A stretch of 37,064 nucleotides of DNA from Deltaproteobacteria bacterium. GTDB lineage: Bacteria > Desulfobacterota > Desulfomonilia > Desulfomonilales > Desulfomonilaceae. The DNA lies in NCBI GenBank assembly GCA_016875095.1, contig VGSG01000038.1, positions 1-37,064 of the forward strand, in the 5' to 3' direction. The position numbers and the translations under genes were made by a program. Shown piece after piece: positions 9,253 to 30,006 of the stretch (within the stretch, counting starts at the first letter, position 1; each line of letters starts with the position of its first letter). The notes under the pieces are model-generated. The model ran no database searches. It had not been told where the DNA came from and was given only the letters and a program-made list of their open reading frames with translations.

Positions 9253-10554
9253 ATGGCGCGCAAGTCTCTGATACTGGTTTCAGTGGCTGTTCTTGCCCTG
9301 GTCATGGCAGCGCCGGTGTGGGCCGCGGATGAAATAAAGATCGGCGTGCTCTATCCTTTGACCGGCGGAGCCGCGGCCGAAGGGAAAGAACTGCGGGACG
9401 GCGCGGAGCTGGCCGTCGAGATCATTAACAACGCGAAACCCGAGTTGAGTATGGCTATCGCGAAGAACGCGGGGATCAAATCCCTCGGCGGGGCCAAGGT
9501 GAAGCTCATTATTCAGGATCATCAAGGCAATCCGCAACTTGCCGCGGACCTGGCTAAGAAGCTTATTCAGGATGATAAGGTCGTCGGCCTCATGGGCGCT
9601 TATCATTCTGCGGTCACCAAGACCGTTTCAGCCGTGGCCGAGCGTTTCGGAGTGCCCATGATCAACGAATCCTCCACCAGCCCGGCCCTCACGAAAGAGG
9701 GCTACAAATGGTTCTGGAGGACCACTCCGCACGACACCACCTTCACGAATGACCTCTACGAGTTCTTGGACGGGCTGACCAAGGGAAAGGCCAAGGGCGT
9801 GAAGGCGTTCGACCCAAAGGAGCTTCTGCCCATTGTTTCCGCTTGTGAAAAGACTGAATGGGGGGCCAATGTGGATCTCGCAATCAAGGAGATCGGCAAG
9901 GCCAGAGCGGTACCCGTTCAGTTGAGTCTTCTGTATGCGGCAAAGGCCCCGGATCTGTCCTCCGAGGTGCAGAGCCTCCTCGCTCCGAAGCCCGCGACCA
10001 TGCTCTTTGCGGGCTACGGCGCGGATGCAATCCTGATGGTGAAGACTCTCAAATCCATGAAGGCCCAGCCCAAGCTTATTTGGGGCCAAAATGCGGGATT
10101 TGAGAGTCCCGAGTTCTTGTCCGCGCTTGGAGACGATGTTAACGGAATACTGACCCGCACCGTGTTCAGCCCCAGAGTGGGACAAGTAAAGAAGGTTGCG
10201 GCCGAGGTCAACGGGCTCTACAAGGCGAAAACCGGGCGTGATCTGAGCGGAGCTTCAGCCAGGGCTTTTACCGCCACTCAGACGTGGGCCCACATCCTCG
10301 AGAAAGCCGGCTCTACCAAACCCGAGGCGCTTCAGAAGGCTGCCAACGAAATCATGATCGGCCCGGATGAGCTTATCGTCCCGTGGAAGGGCGTCAAGTT
10401 TGCCACCACCGGCTCGGACATCGGCCAGAACGAGCTTGGCACAGGCATGATCGGCCAATACCAGAAAGGTAAAGACGGCAAGATCACCCTGGAGATCATC
10501 TATCCGTTCGAACTGGCCACCGCCGACTTGATCTATCCATTCAAAGGCTGGTAG
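9253..10554 (+). CDS. livK: Branched-chain amino acid-type ABC transporter, periplasmic binding protein
   Basis: Periplasmic type I solute-binding protein (433 aa) of the Leu/Ile/Val and amide/organic-acid importer class. The ATG at 9253 follows GGGGAGG and starts a clear signal peptide (LILVSVAVLALVMAAPVWA, then ADEIKIG). The mature N-terminus IKIGVLYPLTGG, the GAYHSAVTKTVSAVAE segment and the INESSTSPALT segment are typical of the family. Family members bind amino acids, amides, urea or aromatic acids, so the ligand is not fixed by sequence. It is separated from livH by 295 bases with a strong hairpin, a common way to make more binding protein than membrane subunits. Confidence 0.9.
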   Translation: MARKSLILVSVAVLALVMAAPVWAADEIKIGVLYPLTGGAAAEGKELRDGAELAVEIINNAKPELSMAIAKNAGIKSLGGAKVKLIIQDHQGNPQLAADLAKKLIQDDKVVGLMGAYHSAVTKTVSAVAERFGVPMINESSTSPALTKEGYKWFWRTTPHDTTFTNDLYEFLDGLTKGKAKGVKAFDPKELLPIVSACEKTEWGANVDLAIKEIGKARAVPVQLSLLYAAKAPDLSSEVQSLLAPKPATMLFAGYGADAILMVKTLKSMKAQPKLIWGQNAGFESPEFLSALGDDVNGILTRTVFSPRVGQVKKVAAEVNGLYKAKTGRDLSGASARAFTATQTWAHILEKAGSTKPEALQKAANEIMIGPDELIVPWKGVKFATTGSDIGQNELGTGMIGQYQKGKDGKITLEIIYPFELATADLIYPFKGW

Positions 10555-10596
10555 GCCGACCTGGAGCGAACGGCATTGAAGTCTGCGCCAACGATC

Positions 10597-10673
10597 GCCC
10601 TCCTCCAGCCCCCTCCCATTAAGGGAGGGGGCTGCAAGAATCTCTTCCCGCGGGACGCGGGAGGGGAGAGGGC
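10597..10673. repeat. GC-rich palindromic repeat after livK
   Basis: AGCCCCCTCCC (10607-10617) pairs perfectly with GGGAGGGGGCT (10623-10633) around the loop ATTAA. A second stem, CCCGCG-GGA-CGCGGG, follows near 10648-10662, and GCCCTC/GAGGGC close the outside. There is no U-tract. It resembles in style, not in sequence, the palindrome at 3722-3799 and probably attenuates readthrough from livK into livH. Confidence 0.65.
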
Positions 10674-10849
10674 AGAGTGAGGGGGATTCCAGCTTCGTTC
10701 ACGGGCGCGGATCCCAATGCGGCTCGTAGGGGAATTGCCTCTGTCGTAGGGTTTGCGCTCCTCTCCTCGCGTCCACTGATGTTTTCTCGGCGGTGGAGTC
10801 GTGCCTTAGACCGGAAATCCTTGTATGCAAGAGAGATCGTGGGCGAACA

Positions 10850-11782
10850 ATGACCGTTGAAACTCTTCTGGCGCAGGCGCTCAAGGCGTTGGTTTCAGGG
10901 CTGACCATGGGTATGGTCTTTGGTCTCGTGGCCTTGGGACTCACCATTATCTTCGGCGTGATGGACATCGTGAACTTCGCGCACGGTGAGTTCCTCATGA
11001 TCGGCATGTATTGCGGCCTGCTCACGTACTCCGGTCTGGGGGCCGATCCTCTCTTCGGCCTTCCCATAGCGGCCGTGGTGGGTTTTGCTCTTGGGGTCGG
11101 GTGTTATTACGGCCTCGTCCAGTTCTTGTTGCGTGGGCCGATGATAGCCCAGTTGTTCGGGACATTCGGCCTGATGCTCTTTCTTCGGAACTTGGCCTTG
11201 TTGATTATGGGAGCGGACCCCAGAGGCGTTCATCACGGCGCTCTGGTGGGCAAGTCTTTTGTCATGGGCCCGGGGATCGTGGTTGAGCTCACCAAACTGA
11301 CTGCGGGGATATTCTCTCTGCTTGCCTTTGCGGCGGTCTGGTGGCTGATGAACAGGACCCGAATCGGTTTGGCGCTTACCGCGACTGCCCTGGATGGTCA
11401 GGCCGCGCGATACATGGGCATACCTACGGAAAAGATGAACGCATTCGCGTGGGGTCTTGGAGGGACTACGGTTGCGGTGGCGGGGGCGTTGTTGGTCAAT
11501 TTCTGGCCCGTTGATCCGAACGTGGGCCTACTCTTCACCATGATTGCGTTTACCACGGTGGCTCTGGGAGGCTTTGGATCCATTCCCGGCGCGGCTTTTG
11601 CCGGGTTAATCGTCGGATTGTTGATAAATCTGCCTCCGATTTGGGATGCGATTTCGGCCTTTTCCCAGTGGCCTATTCTTACAGCAGGCGAAATGCATCA
11701 GTTCAAGTACTCCTTTGTGTACCTTGCATTTTTCCTGATCATGGTCCTCAGGCCGCGAGGGTTGTTCGGTTGGAAGTACTGA
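10850..11782 (+). CDS. livH: Branched-chain amino acid-type ABC transporter permease
   Basis: Inner-membrane permease of the LivH type (310 aa, about eight transmembrane segments). The ATG at 10850 is preferred because MTVETLLAQALKALVSGLTM is the usual family N-terminus; an in-frame upstream extension lacks membrane character. ALGLTIIFGVMDIVNFAHGE is the LivH hallmark, and the GGFGSIPGAAFAGLIVG loop near the C-terminus contacts the ATPase. Its last 13 bases overlap the next gene. Confidence 0.93.
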   Translation: MTVETLLAQALKALVSGLTMGMVFGLVALGLTIIFGVMDIVNFAHGEFLMIGMYCGLLTYSGLGADPLFGLPIAAVVGFALGVGCYYGLVQFLLRGPMIAQLFGTFGLMLFLRNLALLIMGADPRGVHHGALVGKSFVMGPGIVVELTKLTAGIFSLLAFAAVWWLMNRTRIGLALTATALDGQAARYMGIPTEKMNAFAWGLGGTTVAVAGALLVNFWPVDPNVGLLFTMIAFTTVALGGFGSIPGAAFAGLIVGLLINLPPIWDAISAFSQWPILTAGEMHQFKYSFVYLAFFLIMVLRPRGLFGWKY

Positions 11783-12774
11783 AGCGGACTTTCGACTTTT
11801 CGGATTTTCCCCGAACCGACCTGTGCGTGGCCGGCGCGGTCGCGCTTTTTCTGCTCATATTTCCGTTGCTGCCTCATTCCAGCTTTGCCATGGCCACCAT
11901 GATCCAGTTCCTGATGTTTTCCGTATACGGGATGGGTTGGAACACCATCGGCGGTTACGGAGGTCAGGTGGATCTGGGAAAGGCCCAGTACGTCGGCATC
12001 GGAGCTTATACCACCGCGGTAATGATGATCCGCTGGCAGGTCCCTTTCTGGGTCTCCCTTCCTATAGGAATGGCCCTGGCTGTCGGATGGAGCTTTATAC
12101 TCGGATATCCGTTATTCAGACTGAGAGGCCATTATTTCGCGATAGCCACAATCGCTGTCTCTCTGGTGCTGAAGGATATCTTCGAAGCCTGGTCGTTCGT
12201 GGGCGGAGCGAGGGGCCTTAAGATCCCGCTCAGGACCGACATGCCCAGTTTCTTGTACCTCCAATTCCGTGAAGATTATTATTACTATTACGTCATACTC
12301 GGACTCTTTTTTGTGGGCTTATTTTACATCAACTGGTTTCGGCAAAGCAGAATCGGGTACCAGTTACGGTGTATCAAGGATAATGAAGAGGTGGCCAAGA
12401 GTCTCGGAATCGACGCGCACTGGGCCAAGATTAAGGCCTACGCGGTTGCGACAGCCTTTGTCGCGGCGGTCGGGTCGTTTCATGCCTGCTACAATTTCAA
12501 TATCGAGCCTGAAGACACCATGAGCCTTGACCTCTCGGTTCTTATCGCTCTCATGGCCATGTTGGGCGGCGCCGGCAGTCTCTGGGGCCCGATTATCGGC
12601 GCGGCAGTGCTTGTTCCTATGAAGAACTATTTGGGCGCGTGGTTTGGCGCGAAGGCGGGCCTGGTGGGACTTGACCTGATTATTTATTCGACCATCATCA
12701 TGGTTATTGCCGCATTTGAGCCTCGTGGGATCTGGGGCTTGATCACACGCCTTCGCGAGTCCCGGAGGAATTGA
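11770..12774 (+). CDS. livM: Branched-chain amino acid-type ABC transporter permease
   Basis: Second inner-membrane permease, LivM type (334 aa from the TTG at 11770). The TTG has GAGG 9 bases upstream and overlaps livH by 13 bases; the longer open frame upstream only shadows livH. Family features are GWNTIGGYGGQVDLGKAQYVGIGAYT and the C-terminal MLGGAGSLWGPIIGA loop. It would form the heterodimeric channel with LivH. The stop overlaps the livG start (TGATG). Confidence 0.92.
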   Translation: MEVLKRTFDFSDFPRTDLCVAGAVALFLLIFPLLPHSSFAMATMIQFLMFSVYGMGWNTIGGYGGQVDLGKAQYVGIGAYTTAVMMIRWQVPFWVSLPIGMALAVGWSFILGYPLFRLRGHYFAIATIAVSLVLKDIFEAWSFVGGARGLKIPLRTDMPSFLYLQFREDYYYYYVILGLFFVGLFYINWFRQSRIGYQLRCIKDNEEVAKSLGIDAHWAKIKAYAVATAFVAAVGSFHACYNFNIEPEDTMSLDLSVLIALMAMLGGAGSLWGPIIGAAVLVPMKNYLGAWFGAKAGLVGLDLIIYSTIIMVIAAFEPRGIWGLITRLRESRRN

Positions 12775-13535
12775 TGGCTCTGCTTGATGTGCAACACCTG
12801 GGAATGCGATTCGGCGGCTTGCAGGCCAACGTTAATATCTCATTTCAAGTGGAGCGCGGGGAGATGGTTGGGCTGATCGGACCAAACGGGGCCGGCAAGT
12901 CCACCTTGTTCAACTGTCTGGCCGGGGTTCACAATCCCACAGAGGGCCGAATTCTCTTCAAAGACCGGGATGTGACCGGGTCCAGGCCTTACGCGATGGC
13001 TCGTATGGGATTGGCTCGAACTTTTCAGGTGTACGTGGCCACTGGAGACCTGAATGTTATCGAGAACATCATGGTCGGCGGATTCATGAGGTCCCGATCG
13101 CCTCGCGTCTCAAGAGAAAAGGCCGAAAGCTTGGCAGACAAGATGAACCTGGCGGGCCTGGCCCAAGAGCGTGTAGCCAATCTGCCCGTTGCGGCTCAGA
13201 AGCGAGTGACTATGGCTACCGCTCTGGCTACCGCTCCGGACCTCCTCCTGTTGGACGAAGTTGCGGCAGGCCTAAACCCATCGGAAATCGAGCAGATGAT
13301 CGACCTGATCCGTTGGGTTCATCACGACCTGAAGGTGACTATACTCCTCATCGAACACGTCATGGAGCTGGTGATGAAGCTCTCTCACAGGGTGCTCGTT
13401 CTGGACAGCGGCCGGCTGATCGCGGAAGGTGAGCCCGCGGCCGTGTCCAGAAGCCCCGAAGTCATAAAAGCGTACCTCGGTGAACGATACGCGGCGGAGC
13501 AGAGGGGAGATATCGGCCCTCGGACATCGGTATGA
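12774..13535 (+). CDS. livG: Branched-chain amino acid-type ABC transporter ATP-binding protein
   Basis: Cytoplasmic ATPase (253 aa) that with LivF powers the permease pair. GGAGG precedes the ATG, which overlaps the livM stop. Walker A is GPNGAGKST and the Q-loop is in LARTFQVYV. Walker B is LLLLDEV, and the switch histidine follows in LLIEHVMELV. The signature segment reads NLPVAAQKRV instead of the LSGGQ-like or LAYGQQ-like form, so one of the two ATP sites of a LivG/LivF dimer may be weak. Related LivG subfamilies also have diverged signatures, so this may be normal for the group. Confidence 0.93.
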   Translation: MALLDVQHLGMRFGGLQANVNISFQVERGEMVGLIGPNGAGKSTLFNCLAGVHNPTEGRILFKDRDVTGSRPYAMARMGLARTFQVYVATGDLNVIENIMVGGFMRSRSPRVSREKAESLADKMNLAGLAQERVANLPVAAQKRVTMATALATAPDLLLLDEVAAGLNPSEIEQMIDLIRWVHHDLKVTILLIEHVMELVMKLSHRVLVLDSGRLIAEGEPAAVSRSPEVIKAYLGERYAAEQRGDIGPRTSV

Positions 13536-13554
13536 CGCAGCATGAGAACTCTGA

Positions 13555-14280
13555 ATGAATAGGTCTGAAAATCCCATCCTGAAGCTCGAAGACGTGTGGG
13601 TGCGCTACGGGACGGCTCCCGTGGTCCAAGGGGTGAGCCTCGAAATCTACCCGGGTGAGACCGTTTCGGTGGTGGGCTCCAACGGAGCAGGCAAGTCTAC
13701 GCTCTTGAAGGCGATTATGGGCGCACGAGCCGCGTACAGCGGACGGATAATCTTCGAGGGGAATCAAATCCAGAAGAAGCGAACCGAAGAGATTGTTACA
13801 ACGGGAATTATCTATGTCCCCGAGGATCGTCGGCTGTTCAGGCCGCTCTCCGTGGAGGAGAACCTGTTTCTCGGCGCATATGCCCTGGATGATGAGGAGC
13901 GTAAACAAAAGAATCTGGAATTCGTGTACGATCTTTTCCCCGTCTTGCACAGCCGCCGATTTCAGGCGACTGCGACCATGTCCGGCGGAGAACAGCAGAT
14001 GGTCGCAATCGGTCGAGGCTTGATGAGCAATCCGCGGCTCTTGATGCTGGATGAGCCATCTTTGGGGCTCGCGCCGATGCTGGTGGACGAGGTGCTTGAT
14101 ACGGTTCGCAAGCTGAGAGAACGCGGCTTGACGATTTTGCTGGTAGAACAGAATGTAAGAGAAGCGCTTGAGATATCCGACCGCGGCTACATCCTGCAAA
14201 CGGGGCGAATCGCCAAGCACGGGTCTGCGAAAGATTTGCTCGAGTCCGATGAGATCCGGAAGGCGTTTCTCGGGATGTGA
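13555..14280 (+). CDS. livF: Branched-chain amino acid-type ABC transporter ATP-binding protein
   Basis: Second ATPase of the importer (241 aa). Walker A is GSNGAGKST, the signature is canonical (MSGGEQQMVAIGRGL), Walker B is LLMLDEPSLGLAP, and the switch region is LLVEQNVREAL. The segment YVPEDRRLFRPLSVEENL is typical of LivF. It follows livG by 19 bases and precedes the kor genes by 37 bases on the same strand, so transporter and oxidoreductase are probably cotranscribed. Confidence 0.94.
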   Translation: MNRSENPILKLEDVWVRYGTAPVVQGVSLEIYPGETVSVVGSNGAGKSTLLKAIMGARAAYSGRIIFEGNQIQKKRTEEIVTTGIIYVPEDRRLFRPLSVEENLFLGAYALDDEERKQKNLEFVYDLFPVLHSRRFQATATMSGGEQQMVAIGRGLMSNPRLLMLDEPSLGLAPMLVDEVLDTVRKLRERGLTILLVEQNVREALEISDRGYILQTGRIAKHGSAKDLLESDEIRKAFLGM

Positions 14281-14317
14281 GCGCAATCGTGCCGGGAGTG
14301 AAGAATAGGGCGGAAAG

Positions 14318-14680
14318 ATGGCCGCTAGGAAAAGAAAACAAAGCCCACAGCATGAGGATCAGCGTGAAAAGGTAAGATTCTACCCGGCCTGGTGCAAACG
14401 ATGTGGCAACTGTGCGGCGTTCTGTCCGCAGCATGTAATCGAGATGGACCAATGGGGCTATCCGCACGCAGTGCGAACTCACGACTGCATCAGTTGTCAT
14501 ATGTGCGAAAAACTCTGCCCTGACTTCGCTGTCACGGTCGGCGAGGAAACCCCCTCTTCGGTTTCCAGGCGAGGAGCCGCCGGGCCGTCCCCCGGAACTG
14601 AGGGTTCTCTTGTCAGCCAGGATCACAGCCCGGAAAGATTAGCCAAGACACCACACCCCGATGAGGAGGAGCATGATTAA
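14318..14680 (+). CDS. korD: 2-oxoacid:ferredoxin oxidoreductase, delta (ferredoxin-like) subunit
   Basis: Ferredoxin-like electron-transfer subunit (120 aa) with two 4Fe-4S motifs: CKRCGNCAAFCP and CISCHMCEKLCP. It would pass electrons from the thiamine-diphosphate site to free ferredoxin. The order delta-alpha-beta-gamma matches other KorDABC operons. The C-terminal 45 residues, rich in Pro, Ser, Glu and His, are a flexible tail without recognised function. The end overlaps the korA start by 8 bases, indicating translational coupling. Confidence 0.9.
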   Translation: MAARKRKQSPQHEDQREKVRFYPAWCKRCGNCAAFCPQHVIEMDQWGYPHAVRTHDCISCHMCEKLCPDFAVTVGEETPSSVSRRGAAGPSPGTEGSLVSQDHSPERLAKTPHPDEEEHD

Positions 14681-15809
14681 ACGTCAGGCGCGCCTCCTGC
14701 AAGGAAATGAAGCAATCGTCCACGGGGCGCTTGCGGCCGGCTGTAATTTCTTCGCCGGCTATCCGATTACCCCGTCCAGCGAGATCATGGAGTTGATGAG
14801 CCGTGAGCTTCCGGTGAGAGGGGACGTGTTCATTCAGATGGAGGATGAGATCGCTTCGCTGGGCGCGTGCATAGGGGCCGGCCTCGCGGGTCGCAAAGCC
14901 ATGACAGCTACCAGTGGTCCCGGTTTCTCGCTCATGCAGGAGAATTTTGGTTACGCGTGCATGGCCGAGACACCGGTGGTGGTGGTAAACGTGATGAGGG
15001 CCGGGCCCTCCACCGGCATGCCCACCAATGTAGCTCAAGGGGATGTGCAGCAGGCGCGATGGGGCACTCACGGGGACCATCCTTGTATAGCGCTGTGCCC
15101 TTCCACTGTGGCTGAATGCTATGAGCTGACCGTGGTCGCGTTCAACCATGCGGAACGATTTCGCACTCCTGTCGTGCTCCTGTCTGACGAAATGGTGGCT
15201 CATACCCGTGAGAAGGTTGTCCTGCCTCACCCCGAGGACGTGGAGGTAATCGACCGGCGCCGACCTACGGTTCCGCCCGATTGGTATGTGCCGTACAAAA
15301 CCGACGGGAGTCTGATCCCGCGGCTTGCGGATCTCGGCGAAGGGTACAGATACCATGTGACTGGCTTAACCCACGACGAGCGAGGCTTCCCCACGCGCAG
15401 GCTCGACGAGGTCCAACAGTTCTACACGCGTCTTTTCGCCAAGATCAGTCGCCAGTTCCACTACCTTGAAAATGTTAAAGATTACTATCTCGACGATTGC
15501 GAGCTTCTCATCATTGCGTACGGGTGCTCCGCGCGCTCGGCTCGCGCGGCCGTTCGTCTGGGTCGAGAGCGAGGGTTGAAGGTTGGCTTGCTGCAACTCC
15601 TGTCTCTGTGGCCTTTCCCAAGGAGGCCCGTTTCTGAAGCGCTCAACGGTAAGATCGCGGTCCTTGTGCCGGAACTCAACCTGGGACAGCTTCGCAGAGA
15701 AGTCCTTCGGGTCAATGATGGGCGAACCGCGGTGATCGGGCTGAACAAACTCGATGGAACCATGATAACCCCTGAAGAAATCCTTACCAGGCTGAGGGTA
15801 ATAAAGTGA
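14673..15809 (+). CDS. korA: 2-oxoacid:ferredoxin oxidoreductase, alpha subunit
   Basis: Alpha subunit (378 aa) with the pyrimidine-binding fold of thiamine-diphosphate enzymes. The start at 14673 has AGGAGG just upstream; an ATG 12 bases earlier has no ribosome site. LLQGNEAIVHGALAAGC followed by FFAGYPITPSSE is the usual N-terminus of 2-oxoglutarate-type subunits, and EDEIASLGACIGAGLAG and TSGPGFSLMQENFGYA are conserved. The enzyme makes acyl-CoA, CO2 and reduced ferredoxin, or runs in reverse. 2-Oxoglutarate is the commonest substrate for this subfamily, but branched-chain or aromatic 2-oxo acids cannot be excluded. Confidence 0.9.
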   Translation: MIKRQARLLQGNEAIVHGALAAGCNFFAGYPITPSSEIMELMSRELPVRGDVFIQMEDEIASLGACIGAGLAGRKAMTATSGPGFSLMQENFGYACMAETPVVVVNVMRAGPSTGMPTNVAQGDVQQARWGTHGDHPCIALCPSTVAECYELTVVAFNHAERFRTPVVLLSDEMVAHTREKVVLPHPEDVEVIDRRRPTVPPDWYVPYKTDGSLIPRLADLGEGYRYHVTGLTHDERGFPTRRLDEVQQFYTRLFAKISRQFHYLENVKDYYLDDCELLIIAYGCSARSARAAVRLGRERGLKVGLLQLLSLWPFPRRPVSEALNGKIAVLVPELNLGQLRREVLRVNDGRTAVIGLNKLDGTMITPEEILTRLRVIK

Positions 15810-16657
15810 CGGTCCCTTCAACCCAAACGGTCGTTTACGAGTGGCTCCGGCACGACAAGAAATTCCCGCATGTCTGGTGTCCCGGCTGCGGGCTCGGGAT
15901 ATTGCTGGGCGCTCTGGTCAGGGCGCTGGCCGCAAGCGGCCTTACCAAGGATCAAGTGGCCCTGGTCTCGGGCATCGGGTGCGCGGGCCGACTGCCGGTG
16001 TACGTTGATGTTGGGAGCATTCATACGACTCACGGTCGAGCCCTTACTTTTGCCACCGGAATAAAACTTTCCAAGCCCGAGCTGACCGTGGTTGTAGTGA
16101 TGGGCGATGGTGACGCAATGGCGATCGGGGGAAACCACCTCATCCACGCGGCCCGAAGAAACCTGGATCTTGTGGCGGTTGTTGTCAACAACCGGACATT
16201 CGGGATGACCGGCGGGCAATTCAGCCCGACCACGCCCATGGGCGCCAAGACTACCACCGCGCTCTACGGTCATATAGAACCGGAATTTGACATTGCCGCG
16301 GTCTGCGCCACCGCAGGAGCGGCTCTTGTCGCTCGTTCCACAGTGTACCACGTGGACCGGCTTGAGCGCCTGCTTCTTCAGGCGCTTCAGAAGAAGGGCT
16401 TCAGCGTCGTTGAGGTGATGTCACCTTGTTATACCAATTTTGGCCGCCAGAACCTCATGGCTTCCCACGTGGTCATGATGAAGCAGCTCAAGGAACAAGG
16501 AATTCCGGTGGAACGATGGCAAAAGATGAGCGAGATTGAGCGTCGGGGCTCCTTTCCCCTGGGAGTGCTGGTAGACAGGGACCTGCCCGGATATTTGGAC
16601 TCGTACCGCGAAGTCTGCAAAACAGCCGCGAAACTCCGGAGTGAGGGTAAAATATGA
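15806..16657 (+). CDS. korB: 2-oxoacid:ferredoxin oxidoreductase, beta subunit (TPP-binding)
   Basis: Beta subunit (283 aa) that binds thiamine diphosphate. The GTG start overlaps the korA stop (GTGA) and has GAGG 8 bases upstream. WCPGCGLGILLGAL is the conserved N-terminal motif with a cluster-related Cys pair. GDGDAMAIGGNH leads the diphosphate- and Mg-binding motif, completed by VVNNRTFGMTGGQ. Contains the catalytic cofactor of the complex; the korC start overlaps its end by 4 bases. Confidence 0.93.
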   Translation: MTVPSTQTVVYEWLRHDKKFPHVWCPGCGLGILLGALVRALAASGLTKDQVALVSGIGCAGRLPVYVDVGSIHTTHGRALTFATGIKLSKPELTVVVVMGDGDAMAIGGNHLIHAARRNLDLVAVVVNNRTFGMTGGQFSPTTPMGAKTTTALYGHIEPEFDIAAVCATAGAALVARSTVYHVDRLERLLLQALQKKGFSVVEVMSPCYTNFGRQNLMASHVVMMKQLKEQGIPVERWQKMSEIERRGSFPLGVLVDRDLPGYLDSYREVCKTAAKLRSEGKI

Positions 16658-17268
16658 CCAGGGCGTCGCGGCCGCGACTGCCTCATCCTCGGGTTGAGCT
16701 CAGACTCGCCGGCTCAGGGGGTCAGGGGCTCATTCTTGCGGGTTTGATTCTGGCGGAGGCCGCGGGGGTCTATGATGGGAGAGAGGTGGCCATGGTGCAA
16801 TCATACGGTCCCGAGGCCCGCGGCGGGGCGAGCAAAGCGGAAATTATCCTCAGCGACGAGCCCATTGATTACCCCCTCTGCGCCAACGTGGACCTCTTCC
16901 TCGCCATGAATCAGGAAGCTTCCGATTCATACTGCTGGGACCTGAAGCCCGGAGCTTGGATTGTGGTGGACAAGGACCTGGTGAACCATCCGCCGAGCAG
17001 TCGCGCGGTATCGCTTGCCTTCACCACGGTTGCCCATGAAAAGCTGGGCAAGAGAATGGTCGCCAACATTGTGGCGCTTGGGGCCATTTCGGCGATGACC
17101 GGCCTGGTGAGCAAGCGCGCGCTGGAAAAGGCGCTCTTAAGCCACGTCCCGCCCGGGACCGCAGACATCAACCGGCGAGCGCTGGCCCTGGGGATCAAGC
17201 TCGGCGGGGCCCAGGCAGGCAAGCCGCCCTCGGCCGAAGATGAGGAGTACGACGAGGAGTCCGATTAG
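16654..17268 (+). CDS. korC: 2-oxoacid:ferredoxin oxidoreductase, gamma subunit
   Basis: Gamma subunit (204 aa) of the same complex; the ATG overlaps korB by 4 bases. LAGSGGQGLILAGLILAEAA and QSYGPEARGGASKAEI are the family hallmarks, involved in CoA binding and subunit contacts. It ends in an acidic tail (EDEEYDEESD). The set delta, alpha, beta, gamma is complete, so the enzyme is probably functional. Confidence 0.92.
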   Translation: MTRASRPRLPHPRVELRLAGSGGQGLILAGLILAEAAGVYDGREVAMVQSYGPEARGGASKAEIILSDEPIDYPLCANVDLFLAMNQEASDSYCWDLKPGAWIVVDKDLVNHPPSSRAVSLAFTTVAHEKLGKRMVANIVALGAISAMTGLVSKRALEKALLSHVPPGTADINRRALALGIKLGGAQAGKPPSAEDEEYDEESD

Positions 17269-17347
17269 TCCCGAATTCCCCCGACCTGCCGCAATGATCA
17301 CCATTGCTCTTGGCAAGACTACAAAAGCCTTTCCGAAGACAGACGCC

Positions 17348-18049
17348 ATGCCAAAACTGTATCCTGAACCCATCTTCCGAGTGATGGGCGATCGCGGTCT
17401 GCTTGTTGAATACGGCGACGCGATCTCCCCGGAGATAAACCTGAAGGTGAGATCCATGGCTGTGGCGCTGGATCGGGCTCGGGTCAAGGGTATCGTGGAG
17501 ATAATTCCCGCGTACCGGTCGTTCCTGATTCTCTACGAACCGCTTGAGACCGATGTGGAGGAGCTCAAGCAAAGTGTCGCACGCGTGGAGGTCGGTCTCG
17601 AGGACATTGAAATCCCGCCGCCTCGCACGATTGAAATCCCGGTCGCGTATGGAGGAAAATTCGGACCGGACATCGAGTTCGTGGCTCAAACACATGGCCT
17701 GAGCATCGATGAGGTCATCACGATACATTCAGGAAATGCGTATCAGATCTACATGATTGCCTTCACTCCCGGGTTCTCGTTTCTAGGAGGATTGCCGGAA
17801 ATTTTGCACTCTCCGCGGCTCCCCACTCCCCGGGCTTTTGTCCCTGCGGGGTCCGTGGGAATTGCTGAGAAGCAGACAGGCATATATGCGATCGAGAGTC
17901 CCGGTGGATGGCGTCTCATCGGCCGAACCCCTTTGAAACTCTTTCAGCCTCTCGCGCGAGAGCCTTTTCTCTATTCCGCGGGCGACCTGATCCGCTTCGT
18001 GCCCATTTCAGCGGAAGAATATAATCAAATCGCCTCCGGGAGCGCCTGA
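17348..18049 (+). CDS. pxpB: 5-oxoprolinase subunit B (KipI family)
   Basis: Cytoplasmic protein (233 aa) of the PxpB/KipI family. In E. coli and Bacillus, PxpA, PxpB and PxpC together hydrolyse 5-oxoproline to glutamate using ATP; KipI also inhibits the sporulation kinase KinA. YPEPIFRVMGDRGLLVEYGD is the typical start, and the C-terminal half has IAFTPGFSFLGGLPEIL and AGSVGIAEKQTGIYAIESPGGW. The ATG at 17348 is chosen to match family length; an ATG at 17294 and a start inside korC are possible but have weak ribosome sites. It follows korC closely and overlaps pxpC, so it belongs to the same transcription unit. Confidence 0.9.
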   Translation: MPKLYPEPIFRVMGDRGLLVEYGDAISPEINLKVRSMAVALDRARVKGIVEIIPAYRSFLILYEPLETDVEELKQSVARVEVGLEDIEIPPPRTIEIPVAYGGKFGPDIEFVAQTHGLSIDEVITIHSGNAYQIYMIAFTPGFSFLGGLPEILHSPRLPTPRAFVPAGSVGIAEKQTGIYAIESPGGWRLIGRTPLKLFQPLAREPFLYSAGDLIRFVPISAEEYNQIASGSA

Positions 18050-19011
18050 TGGAGACCTTCTTTGTCCGTGAACCGGGCGCATTCACGACCGTTCAAGATG
18101 CGGGAAGGTACGGTTTCCAGCGATTCGGCGTGCCGGTTTCCGGGGCTCTGGACAAATTCGCGTTCGTGGCCGCGAACCTGTTGGTAGGCAACCCGGAGAC
18201 CTCAGCCGCGCTGGAAATAACCTTCACCGGTCCTCGGCTCGAGGCCCTGGCGGATGGTCTGGCCGCTGTCACGGGCGCGGACATGCCGGTGGCGCTCAAT
18301 GGCAAGCCTCAACCTCTCTGGGAATCCTTTCGGTTCCGCAAAGGGGACCTTATCGGCTTCAAACCTGCCGCAAAAGGTGTGAGGGCTTATCTTGCCGTGT
18401 CCGGAGGCATACTGGCGCCGGGCGTGATGGGAAGTCGATCCACGTGCGTGCTTGCTGGCATAGGCGGGTTTGACGGCCGACCCTTGCGGAAGGCTGATGT
18501 GATCTCCACCGACTCCGCAACTTCCATTTTCCGGCTCACCTCTATCCCTGAGCAGTTTAGGCCGCAGCACTCGAACTCAATTACGCTGAAATCCGTGGCC
18601 GGTCCTCAAATCGAGACTTTCCGAGACTCGATGGAACTCTTCTTTCAATCCCAATATACGGTGACTTCAAAGGCCGATCGCATGGGTTATCGTCTGGAAG
18701 GGCCCGTGATTCCTTTTGCCTCCGACGCGGCTAAGAGCATTATCTCCGAGCCGAGCGTCCCCGGCATTGTTCAAGTTCCCGCGGATGGATTGCCCATCAT
18801 TATACTCGTGGAACAGACAGCAGGCGGGTACGCGAAAATCGCCACCGTGATCAGCCCCGATCTGGACCTGGTGGCCCAGGCTCGACCGGGGGATCTGATT
18901 CGGTTCTCTCCCTGTGATATCTTAGAAGCGCGACGGATCCATCTGGATTATCGCCACAAGCTCCTTGACCTCAAGAACGCTATCGTTGAGCGAGATCGCA
19001 TGGAGATTTAG
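18049..19011 (+). CDS. pxpC: 5-oxoprolinase subunit C (biotin-dependent carboxylase-like, KipA family)
   Basis: Partner of PxpB (320 aa; start overlaps the pxpB stop as TGATG). FVREPGAFTTVQDAGRYGFQ and GVPVSGALDKFAFVAANLLV are the standard N-terminal motifs of KipA/PxpC; YLAVSGGI, GSRST and SDRMGYRLEG-like segments (here SKADRMGYRLEG) follow. In some bacteria the two proteins are fused as urea-carboxylase-related enzymes. No pxpA (LamB/YcsF family) is present in the window, so either it is elsewhere or the pair has another role. Confidence 0.92.
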   Translation: METFFVREPGAFTTVQDAGRYGFQRFGVPVSGALDKFAFVAANLLVGNPETSAALEITFTGPRLEALADGLAAVTGADMPVALNGKPQPLWESFRFRKGDLIGFKPAAKGVRAYLAVSGGILAPGVMGSRSTCVLAGIGGFDGRPLRKADVISTDSATSIFRLTSIPEQFRPQHSNSITLKSVAGPQIETFRDSMELFFQSQYTVTSKADRMGYRLEGPVIPFASDAAKSIISEPSVPGIVQVPADGLPIIILVEQTAGGYAKIATVISPDLDLVAQARPGDLIRFSPCDILEARRIHLDYRHKLLDLKNAIVERDRMEI

Positions 19012-24727: not shown

Positions 24728-26209
24728 ATGCCGGATCGAAGGATTTATAGCTCTGCGTCTAAGACCCGGGGCTCGCGCGCGCGAGCCCTGATCTGCGTAG
24801 CCTGCCTGCTTGGAGCCGTTTTCTTCACGAGCTGCCCCCTTTGGGGCTCCGAAATATCTATTCGCTCGGACGAGGACTCGAGCCACGCGCAACCCGGTCC
24901 CGTGGAGCAACGGCCGGGGTCATCCCAGTCCCTGCCCTCGGGAACTGAGACCCTTTCAACCCTTGGCGAGAAGGCAGAACAAGCAGAAACCAATCCGTTG
25001 CTCCAGTGGCGGGCGGCCCAGATCCAGGAACTGGGATCCGCCGCATCGGAAGAAATGAAGCTCATGGCCGCCGCGGTTCAACTCTTGGACCGTGAAAGCG
25101 CCGCGCAATGGCTGTCCGGCTTCATGTCTTCGCCACCCCTCAATTGTCCTCTTTCCGAAAAGAAAAATTGGATTGACGCGATCCTGAATGCGGTGGAGCG
25201 CAATGGGTTGCCGTTGTCCAAGGAGATCACCGGGCTCGTGGCATGCATCATTTCCGTTGAATCCGGGTTCCGCGCGGATCCCCTCGCGGTGGACCCTTCG
25301 GGTCGGGAGACCATCGCGGATCTTTTGCGACGGGCTGAAGATCAGTTGCAACAGAATGCGGGCGCCATCCTTCAGACACAACCCCTGGCGGGTCTGTACG
25401 CGGAGTACAAGAACCGGTACTATTCGCGCCTCGTCTCTTGTCGCACGGAAGGAGACGTGGAAGTCGTTGCTCGCTCAATAGCCGGCCAACTGAGGCGGGA
25501 CGCGCAGAATCTCCCCCTCTTTGCGCGCAAGATCGTTAATCGGAATATTGATCGGCTCACTCAGGTGGTCCGAACCAAAGGCTCTATGCAGCTCAATTTC
25601 AATAGGGCCCGACACGTCATGAAGGAGCGCGACGAGCGTTTCATTGACCAGGAGCTTGTGGATTACATGTACACCTGCCAGGGCGGCGTTGACGTAGGTG
25701 TTGCCGCGCTCAAACCCATGTTTGTGCAGTACGCGGCAAGGTACGCCACCCCCGGGGATCTTTCATGGCTCTTCTTTGTGGGCATGGACTACCATTACGG
25801 CCCTTTTTCCAGTAGGAACATGATGGAACAGATCCGAATACGGGATCTCTCGGGTATCCGCATCCCTCTGGACGGCGATCTGCTTCACTATGACGAAGAC
25901 GGGGTAGCCGTCGACAAGGACTCTCAGACTCTAAGAGCCTTTCGGGCCGCGTTTCCCTCCATTTCTCGCGATGAGGTGTTCAGGGCATTCCTGCTCGAAA
26001 AAGACCCCCACTATATCTATACGGACGCGCACCTTCTCTTGAGAGAGGCTCATCAAGAGCGATTCGGCCGGACTCCCTTCGCAGTCATCGGCGAACTCTG
26101 GATGGGCCAGGAAGCGCAAGTGAAGCACGGATCCATGTGGAAGACAAAGGCCTACCTGAAGAAACTGGACGGGCGCCTCAACTCAATCCCCTGGGACTCC
26201 TCGCCCTAG
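24728..26209 (+). CDS. DUF1615-family exported protein, lytic transglycosylase-like
   Basis: 493-aa protein with an N-terminal export signal (residues 18-39, ALICVACLLGAVFFTSC), where Cys36 could be a lipid-anchor site although the lipobox (FTSC) is imperfect. The central part has IISVESGFRADP (Glu178) and KGSMQLNFNRA, which resemble the E-S and G-x-MQ motifs of lysozyme-fold lytic transglycosylases. This pattern fits DUF1615 (PF07759). Likely acts on or binds peptidoglycan in the periplasm; activity is inferred. A Ser/Pro/Glu-rich linker occupies about residues 45-95. No ribosome site is seen. No neighbouring gene shows a link. Confidence 0.7.
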   Translation: MPDRRIYSSASKTRGSRARALICVACLLGAVFFTSCPLWGSEISIRSDEDSSHAQPGPVEQRPGSSQSLPSGTETLSTLGEKAEQAETNPLLQWRAAQIQELGSAASEEMKLMAAAVQLLDRESAAQWLSGFMSSPPLNCPLSEKKNWIDAILNAVERNGLPLSKEITGLVACIISVESGFRADPLAVDPSGRETIADLLRRAEDQLQQNAGAILQTQPLAGLYAEYKNRYYSRLVSCRTEGDVEVVARSIAGQLRRDAQNLPLFARKIVNRNIDRLTQVVRTKGSMQLNFNRARHVMKERDERFIDQELVDYMYTCQGGVDVGVAALKPMFVQYAARYATPGDLSWLFFVGMDYHYGPFSSRNMMEQIRIRDLSGIRIPLDGDLLHYDEDGVAVDKDSQTLRAFRAAFPSISRDEVFRAFLLEKDPHYIYTDAHLLLREAHQERFGRTPFAVIGELWMGQEAQVKHGSMWKTKAYLKKLDGRLNSIPWDSSP

Positions 26210-29100: not shown

Positions 29101-30006
29101 TCACCTGTTCATGAAATCCCACCGAGGATCGAGGCACTCGGAGTCAGCTCGCACCAACGCCAGATTCCGTCGTGCGCGGTCCGGGTTCGAGTTTGCATAG
29201 CAGTACACGCATCCCTGAGCGCATGTGTCGTAAGCTCCAATATCCTTCGATGCTGCGCACCCGCAGCCGTTTCGACTCGGCGCGGTCTTCAGGCGCCTGA
29301 GCGCCTCTTGCCGACGGGTGGAATCAACCACGTGCGCCATCGCCTCCGCGTCTATGCACCGCGCTTTGCCGATGCGCTCGGAGACAAGGAAATCATGAGC
29401 GCACGATAAGAGCGAGATCTTCCGATCGCGGGCTATGTGCGCGAGCTCCTCAGCCATATCTCGGCATTCCGCCTCGGACGGCTTGATATGGTCGGGAACT
29501 CGAAGACTCATATTTCTTTTCGTCTTGCGATAGTAATCGCAGAAGCTGAAAATGCACTCCGAGGTAAACCCCGCAAGCGACGCGCACAGATTGCGAAAAT
29601 TGCTCGTGTGCCAACTGCGATCCAGTTTCTCGGTCATAACGATTGTGTCATAACGCCATCGCAGCCCGCGGGGACCGAGTTTCTTCGCAAGAGTCTCCAC
29701 TATCTTCATGGTGTGACCCAGTTTCGGCGTCCCAGGTTCCAGGAAAGCCGGATAATTGTTCACCGTGTACAGAAAAGAGAAGCAGTAGCCCCGGTTTCTG
29801 AGCTCGTCCAGATACTTGAGCAACGGCGCCGCGTTCTTGGTCCAAAAGACAATCCCGAGCACGTCCTCTGTCAAGAGAGAAATCTCGAAAACTCTCGGGC
29901 CGAAAGGAGAAATTACGCGCACGCGTCCCGCTCGGATGCGATTCATGAACCATGCCGCGTGTAACGCGGGGATGTCGGTGCGCCTGCTGGCGGAAATGAT
30001 GTGCAT
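29101..30006 (-). CDS. DUF1848-family protein
   Basis: 301 aa; the ATG at 30006 has GAGGCG upstream. ISASRRTDIPALHAAWFMNRI, WTKNAAPLL and the YCFSFLYTVNNYP-like segment are typical of DUF1848 (PF08902). The C-terminal region has Cys248 and Cys250, and C-x3-C-x2-CYA (Cys262, Cys266, Cys269), an iron-sulfur-cluster-like motif reminiscent of radical SAM and DNA photolyase-like repair enzymes. Function is not established. It is in the opposite orientation to recA; the 471-base gap between them holds only the candidate recA promoter. Confidence 0.85.
   Translation of the reverse strand: MHIISASRRTDIPALHAAWFMNRIRAGRVRVISPFGPRVFEISLLTEDVLGIVFWTKNAAPLLKYLDELRNRGYCFSFLYTVNNYPAFLEPGTPKLGHTMKIVETLAKKLGPRGLRWRYDTIVMTEKLDRSWHTSNFRNLCASLAGFTSECIFSFCDYYRKTKRNMSLRVPDHIKPSEAECRDMAEELAHIARDRKISLLSCAHDFLVSERIGKARCIDAEAMAHVVDSTRRQEALRRLKTAPSRNGCGCAASKDIGAYDTCAQGCVYCYANSNPDRARRNLALVRADSECLDPRWDFMNR

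Follow-up and report, generated by a model that had tools for sequence, protein, structure and literature searches.

What would a branched-chain-type ABC importer, a 2-oxoacid:ferredoxin oxidoreductase and two 5-oxoprolinase subunits do together in one gene block? The question is raised by a stretch of 37,064 nucleotides (hereafter the window; contig C38, VGSG01000038.1) from a Deltaproteobacteria bacterium of the family Desulfomonilaceae, whose assembly measures 4.7 Mb and is 100% complete. At 9253-19011, the window carries the eleven-gene run livKHMGF-korDABC-pxpBC, all on the plus strand, each frame intact with a single terminal stop, and Pfam and NCBIfam searches assigned all eleven genes to the named families. 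A first-pass annotation had described one co-directional, tightly joined block for 5-oxoproline import, opening to glutamate and oxidation by Kor. Direction and intactness were borne out and most joints are overlaps or short gaps, but livK-livH (295 bases) and korC-pxpB (79 bases) are looser, and the proposed function gained support wherever it could be tested. We conclude that the block is probably an operon with which an anaerobe utilises 5-oxoproline (pyroglutamate). The evidence is good for import and ring opening; we infer the Kor step with its substrate and direction, the co-transcription of the block and the anaerobic life of the host.

The substrate was assigned through LivK, the periplasmic binding protein. 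Searching PDB sequences with LivK returned 8wch, entitled 'SAR11_0655 bound to a co-purified ligand, L-pyroglutamate', at an E value of 5.7e-86, with the runner-up at 1.3e-14. Structure comparisons with an AlphaFold model of LivK (mean pLDDT 86) again singled out this chain, both by Z score (51.1 at 39% identity; runner-up 42.1 at 20%) and in Foldseek (2.1e-43; runner-up 5.3e-26). By sequence, the LivK of a Desulfobacterales genome, bin36, likewise favored 8wch (1.5e-68 versus 1.8e-17 for the runner-up). As controls, the paralogue LivK2 from the window's own genome showed no preference (7.1e-25 for 8wch versus 1.7e-23 for the runner-up), and the Liv binding protein encoded near pxpABC in another genome of the class, G005, was closest to 3i45 and not SAR11_0655-like. 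The notion that all liv operons near pxp genes are alike was rejected on account of this G005 operon, which lies about 3 kb from pxpABC. The G005 stretch itself (L042, 593-11072) encodes livKHMGF, then a butyryl-CoA:acetate-type CoA-transferase, an HpaB-family protein, which we take to be 4-hydroxybutyryl-CoA dehydratase-like, and pxpABC; it possibly represents another lactam or amino acid route.

In a tree of 26 rows, the window LivK, its two orthologues, SAR11_0655 and five plasmid-encoded proteins formed a clade with 95/96 support, which the bin36 protein joined at 100/99. A (Q/N)xAG(F/Y) stretch, QNAG in both LivK and SAR11_0655, is common to the whole clade except bin36, and two solved Liv proteins, 4n0q (with leucine) and 3td9, carry an acidic residue at this position of the LivK alignment. 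In Liv proteins, this acidic residue presumably anchors the ammonium group of the amino acid ligand. As no clean acidic column appeared among the control proteins of a larger alignment, in which the plasmid binding proteins were trimmed to their last 440 residues, the motif is only a suggestive clue to the ligand. Judged by its kinship, LivK would bind 5-oxoproline.

Gene neighborhoods provided a second line of evidence. Five LivK homologues were found at E <= 1e-40 among 72,556 plasmid records, and an oxoprolinase-family enzyme, of one of two unrelated kinds, lies within 9 kb of three of them. The Azospirillum homologue has PxpB, PxpC and PxpA nearby, together with a 'putative hydro-lyase', which we take to be of the YcsI type; the Bacillus subtilis pxp cluster presumably comprises ycsI, kipI, kipA and kipR. 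On the Agrobacterium plasmid, a 1203-residue hydantoinase B/oxoprolinase family protein (OplAH type) is accompanied by a Glu/Leu/Phe/Val dehydrogenase and, again, a YcsI-type gene. Roseomonas, with HyuA-HyuB, is the weakest of the three cases because hydantoinases and caprolactamase, too, are of the HyuAB type. On the other two plasmids, from Terrarubrum and Methylobacterium, a YcsI-type gene adjoins the livK homologue. Some records came without annotation, and neighboring genes were therefore sought by tblastn. Neither oxoprolinase-family nor YcsI-type genes were found around any of 12 control Liv-type importers, which represent 12 of the 23 records at E <= 1e-25, listed by 'spread'. Fisher's test gave p values of 0.015 for oxoprolinases only and 0.00016 when YcsI, added after the regions had been seen, was counted; both overstate independence because the controls contain close pairs (L123/L125 from Azospirillum, L128/L130 from Deinococcus). 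Across the class, LivK orthologues (E <= 1e-60) occur in four genomes, all of which also possess native-type pxpB, a gene present in 7 of 18 genomes of the family (hypergeometric probability 0.011 for four out of four).

These data also bear on the idea that the importer carries some other substrate, an amino or organic acid of the branched-chain, aromatic or 2-oxo type, while PxpBC and PxpA merely recycle internal 5-oxoproline. The family does bind many ligands, aromatic and 2-oxo acids among them according to structure titles, and Bacillus subtilis pxp mutants accumulate internally formed 5-oxoproline (PMC13274462). However, LivK sits specifically near the pyroglutamate-bound SAR11_0655 and binding proteins with oxoprolinase neighbors, whereas the paralogue and the 12 controls do not, which renders such an alternative improbable.

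In the window, pxpB and pxpC are adjacent and both exceed the cut-offs of their TIGRFAM models, that is, subunits B and C of PxpABC are present, and this pxpB is the sole copy found in the genome. PxpC reached 222 bits with the PxpC equivalog model NF045499, under its cut-off of 500, and its nearest solved chain is YbgK, 5dud. The first-pass annotation had noted that PxpA is absent and argued that the substrate might differ. The absence holds for the window but not for the genome, where a search uncovered a single pxpA on contig C9 (PF03746, 336 bits; NF003814 PxpA, 360 bits, above the cut-off of 226). It is the last gene of a minus-strand run (L012, 8249-16087) comprising livK2-H-M-G-F, a beta-keto acid cleavage enzyme (BKACE), a class-III aminotransferase and pxpA, the latter two separated by 4 bases. 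A conserved aminotransferase-BKACE-pxpA arrangement was considered and rejected, as the remaining 41 genomes of the class contain no relative of the aminotransferase at E <= 1e-100.

G013 (locus L040) is a genome of the same family but another genus. It keeps the gene order of the window and holds the complete run livKHMGF-korDABC-pxpA-pxpB-pxpC, with pxpA placed between korC and pxpB. The objection foreseen in the first-pass annotation, a gene order found in no relative, therefore does not arise. Identities to the window proteins are 73-87% for Liv, 67-81% for KorABC, 49% for KorD and 59-62% for PxpB and PxpC. The C9 PxpA is 61% identical to that of G013; the PxpA tree placed it with G013, G015, G002 and others (92/95) without resolving the order inside this group, and a clade uniting the window genome, G013 and G015 was not rejected (p-AU 0.163). 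In the PxpC tree, the window protein grouped with G013, G015 and G012 (85/92). The trees were built from hand-picked loci (28 PxpA, 31 PxpB and 31 PxpC rows; 17 rows in the p-AU test), leaving out proteins of at least 420 residues and matches below 190 residues. A pxpA remnant at the korC-pxpB joint was rejected, as tblastn with the G013 and C9 PxpA gave only short, chance-level matches. The simplest account is that pxpA moved or was lost from the window operon and is now supplied in trans. In another genome of the class, G012, liv and pxpBC each end at contig ends, and a close KorA or pxpA was not found.

More globally, of 39 pxpB loci from the class and phylum, 31 have pxpA inside the 1.5-kb flanks. 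Among the others, L015 and L098 are cut by contig ends, L020 and L021 have pxpA slightly further away, and for L089, L094, L095 and L100 the view was limited to the 1.5-kb flank. It is thus very improbable that PxpBC dispenses with PxpA and works on another lactam or a carboxylation substrate: such a reading would fit the window, with neither pxpA nor a remnant, and bin36, with pxpBC but no pxpA within the 20 kb examined, but the genome holds a single, lineage-compatible pxpA elsewhere, G013 keeps its copy in place and pxpB usually has pxpA beside it. With that, the doubt about the substrate largely falls. We infer that the C9 PxpA works together with the window PxpBC, and by their family assignments the three would convert 5-oxoproline to glutamate with ATP.

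The remaining module, KorDABC, is complete, its four subunits including the thiamine-diphosphate, gamma and 2x[4Fe-4S] parts; KorD is expected from its motifs to carry two 4Fe-4S clusters. KorA passes only the general 2-oxoacid model, and its solved relatives are 1yd7 (2-keto acid oxidoreductase) and 8ys5 (2-oxoglutarate synthase). The best NCBIfam model of KorB is 2-oxoglutarate ferredoxin oxidoreductase beta (302 bits, under the cut-off of 364), KorD scored best with a 2-oxoglutarate model (39 bits, under 125) and KorC with the general 2-oxoacid gamma subunit (188 bits, under 235). The enzyme is a 2-oxoacid:ferredoxin oxidoreductase whose substrate is perhaps 2-oxoglutarate. A second Kor-type enzyme is present in the genome, with its KorA on contig C50.

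In the proposed route, LivKHMGF would import 5-oxoproline, the ligand being read from the kinship of LivK. PxpB and PxpC would phosphorylate it using ATP, and PxpA, provided in trans from contig C9, would open the ring to yield glutamate (subunit roles taken from PMC13274462). Glutamate dehydrogenase or a transaminase would then turn glutamate into 2-oxoglutarate; the single Gdh-type gene, located elsewhere in the genome, has glutamate dehydrogenase as its best NCBIfam model (516 bits, under the cut-off of 750). Finally, KorDABC would oxidise 2-oxoglutarate to succinyl-CoA and CO2, passing low-potential electrons to ferredoxin.

Several observations weigh against this route. Being about 40% identical to SAR11_0655 is no proof of a shared ligand, co-purification of a ligand with that protein is no measure of affinity, and the pocket residues of LivK were judged from alignments only. 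The (Q/N)xAG(F/Y) stretch is missing from the bin36 protein and from two Cupriavidus proteins, neither of which has an oxoprolinase nearby; these two records were found with the bin36 query rather than the window LivK and stand outside the count of three in five, which becomes three in seven with both included. The C9 pxpA is tied to the livK2HMGF-BKACE-aminotransferase operon, which may need PxpA for its own ends. No convincing promoter or terminator emerged from scans of the DNA (8 hits versus 4.5 expected; 11 versus 9.8 expected), and the scans were not used. Moreover, the modules separate freely: in G002, livKHMGF stands without a following kor, and pxpABC is on a different contig. Within a sample of 395 genomes drawn from the larger phylum, KorA was detected at E <= 1e-125 in 137 and pxpB in 90, yet pxpB lies within 20 kb of such a KorA only in the window genome and G013 (genome positions compared by eye; up to four KorA candidates scored per genome, weaker KorA uncounted). 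korDABC of the window's type occurs without pxp in two class genomes, G014 and G017, and none of twelve further phylum korDABC loci, chosen from the 137 genomes (the six top matches from beyond the class, 70-77% identical, plus six more), has pxp genes; a distant livK (28%) lies near two of the twelve. Kor was consequently rejected as a specific pathway marker, its relatives in the loci seen standing mostly without pxp.

Such loci raise the alternative that Liv and Pxp form a 5-oxoproline system, with Kor between them by chance as a housekeeping 2-oxoglutarate:ferredoxin oxidoreductase of central metabolism, working oxidatively or reductively. The co-occurrence data lean the same way, as the LivK orthologues go with native pxpB in four of four genomes, the close KorA orthologues (78-100% identical) in two of four. 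Against chance placement, kor lies inside the run in two genera, with joints of 37 and 79 bases in the window, and oxidoreductase genes are found near pxp again in Bathyarchaeota and bin36. On balance, we regard a housekeeping Kor as unlikely and retain the 5-oxoproline operon including Kor.

At the bin36 locus (L022/L070, CP070746.1), a single stretch contains pxpBC, an aldehyde ferredoxin oxidoreductase, livKHMGF, a CaiB-type CoA-transferase and a Vor-type oxidoreductase; a caprolactamase-alpha-like gene precedes pxpBC on the opposite strand. In Bathyarchaeota, 12 of 13 loci encode KorA no further than 10 kb from pxpABC, and the thirteenth is a short contig; as all 13 come from a single phylum and were retrieved with PxpB, they amount to about one independent case. 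Placement near pxp thus appears to have arisen at least three times among oxidoreductases of this superfamily. Tentatively, and with less confidence than in the window operon itself, we consider that there may be a recurrent, so far undescribed anaerobic 5-oxoproline route that combines PxpABC with a 2-oxoacid:ferredoxin oxidoreductase (Desulfomonilaceae-like bacteria, Desulfobacterales, Bathyarchaeota) and, in the two bacterial cases, with a dedicated SAR11_0655-like ABC importer; pyroglutamate would be an energy substrate for anaerobes, and the oxoprolinase subunits would be shared by two import operons of one genome. As a separate observation, the same Bathyarchaeota loci (L024-L035 and L038) form a conserved archaeal neighborhood, in which a 2,4-diaminopentanoate dehydrogenase-like gene precedes pxpABC in 11 of 13, and pxpABC faces HdrA-like genes (12/13) and kor genes (12/13).

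Table 1. Features of the livKHMGF-korDABC-pxpBC block; coordinates are those of the window.
Feature	Coordinates	Strand	Basis
livK, periplasmic protein that probably binds 5-oxoproline (pyroglutamate)	9253..10554	+	PF13458; nearest solved chain 8wch
Pair of strong RNA hairpins in the livK-livH gap	10606..10667	+	Fold z -4.7; 0/200 shuffles fold equally well
livH, permease	10850..11782	+	PF02653
livM, permease, TTG start, 334 residues as in G013	11770..12774	+	PF02653
livG, ATPase	12774..13535	+	PF00005 and PF12399
livF, ATPase	13555..14280	+	PF00005; best NCBIfam model LivF, 256 bits, under cut-off 441
korD, ferredoxin-like subunit	14318..14680	+	Fer4 families; two C-x2-C-x2-C-x3-C motifs
korA, 2-oxoacid:ferredoxin oxidoreductase alpha	14661..15809	+	PF01855, PF17147; NF006412, 553 bits, above cut-off 411
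korB, thiamine-diphosphate subunit beta	15806..16657	+	PF02775
korC, gamma subunit	16654..17268	+	PF01558
pxpB, 5-oxoprolinase subunit	17348..18049	+	PF02682; TIGR00370, 200 bits, above cut-off 146
pxpC, 5-oxoprolinase subunit	18049..19011	+	TIGR00724, 272 bits, above cut-off 230

The run contains a binding protein, two BPD_transp_2 permeases and two ATPases, that is, a full HAAT (branched-chain-type) ABC importer set (Table 1). With the listed starts, overlaps of 1-4 bases join livM/livG, korA/korB, korB/korC and pxpB/pxpC (1 base at the last), longer ones korD/korA (20 bases) and livH/livM (13 bases), and short gaps separate livG-livF (19 bases) and livF-korD (37 bases). The livH start, ATG 10850, was picked from the length of relatives' proteins; for livG we took ATG 12774, and TTG 12771 is an alternative start in the same frame. 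The start of pxpB is uncertain: we took ATG 17348, on which the 79-base gap to korC depends, but the open frame extends back to ATG 17240, a start that would make pxpB overlap korC. Both hairpins lie in the livK-livH gap and are a possible processing or differential-expression element; in the corresponding gap of G013, one 105-base part folds weakly (z -1.31), and conservation of the hairpins is thus not established. The block is flanked by seemingly unrelated genes, upstream gyrA, archease, PAP2 and rtcB, downstream an AMIN-domain protein, a glycosyltransferase and a radical-SAM enzyme. The window also encodes a DUF1615 protein (24728-26209) and a DUF1848 protein (29101-30006).

Known 5-oxoproline importers belong to the APC superfamily or the TRAP class, as far as PMC13274462 describes them. 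In the same paper, pxpTABC of Corynebacterium glutamicum and the Bacillus subtilis pxp genes with YcsG are 5-oxoproline systems that, like the window operon, cluster an uptake gene with an ATP-dependent PxpABC oxoprolinase. Their importer, however, is a secondary APC-superfamily carrier, whereas the window combines a branched-chain-type ABC importer with a built-in KorDABC and a pxpA in trans. Bordetella pertussis DctP6/DctP7, also described in PMC13274462, offer binding-protein-dependent 5-oxoproline uptake near a 5-oxoprolinase gene, but represent an unrelated transporter class (TRAP) with a eukaryotic-type oxoprolinase. SAR11_0655 shares a supported clade, 39-40% identity and the QNAG stretch with LivK; it comes from a different organism (SAR11 by name), and the comparison covered the binding protein. 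KorDABC (OorDABC) type oxidoreductases, with the solved relatives mentioned above, have the same four subunits in the order D-A-B-C, but are free of pxp in the twelve further phylum loci, while the window kor sits between importer and oxoprolinase. A literature search, covering few subscription papers and judged by titles and the openings of abstracts, showed no paper on a liv-kor-pxp operon or on a 5-oxoproline importer of the SAR11_0655 kind. The components are already known; an ABC importer with a built-in 2-oxoacid:ferredoxin oxidoreductase for 5-oxoproline is, as far as this search shows, not described.

Overall, a specific substrate can be predicted from the operon for an importer of the branched-chain type, and the large HAAT binding-protein family gains a clade that can be recognized by sequence and tested for 5-oxoproline. 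The operon also allows tests of an oxoprolinase for which one subunit gene stands in a separate operon.

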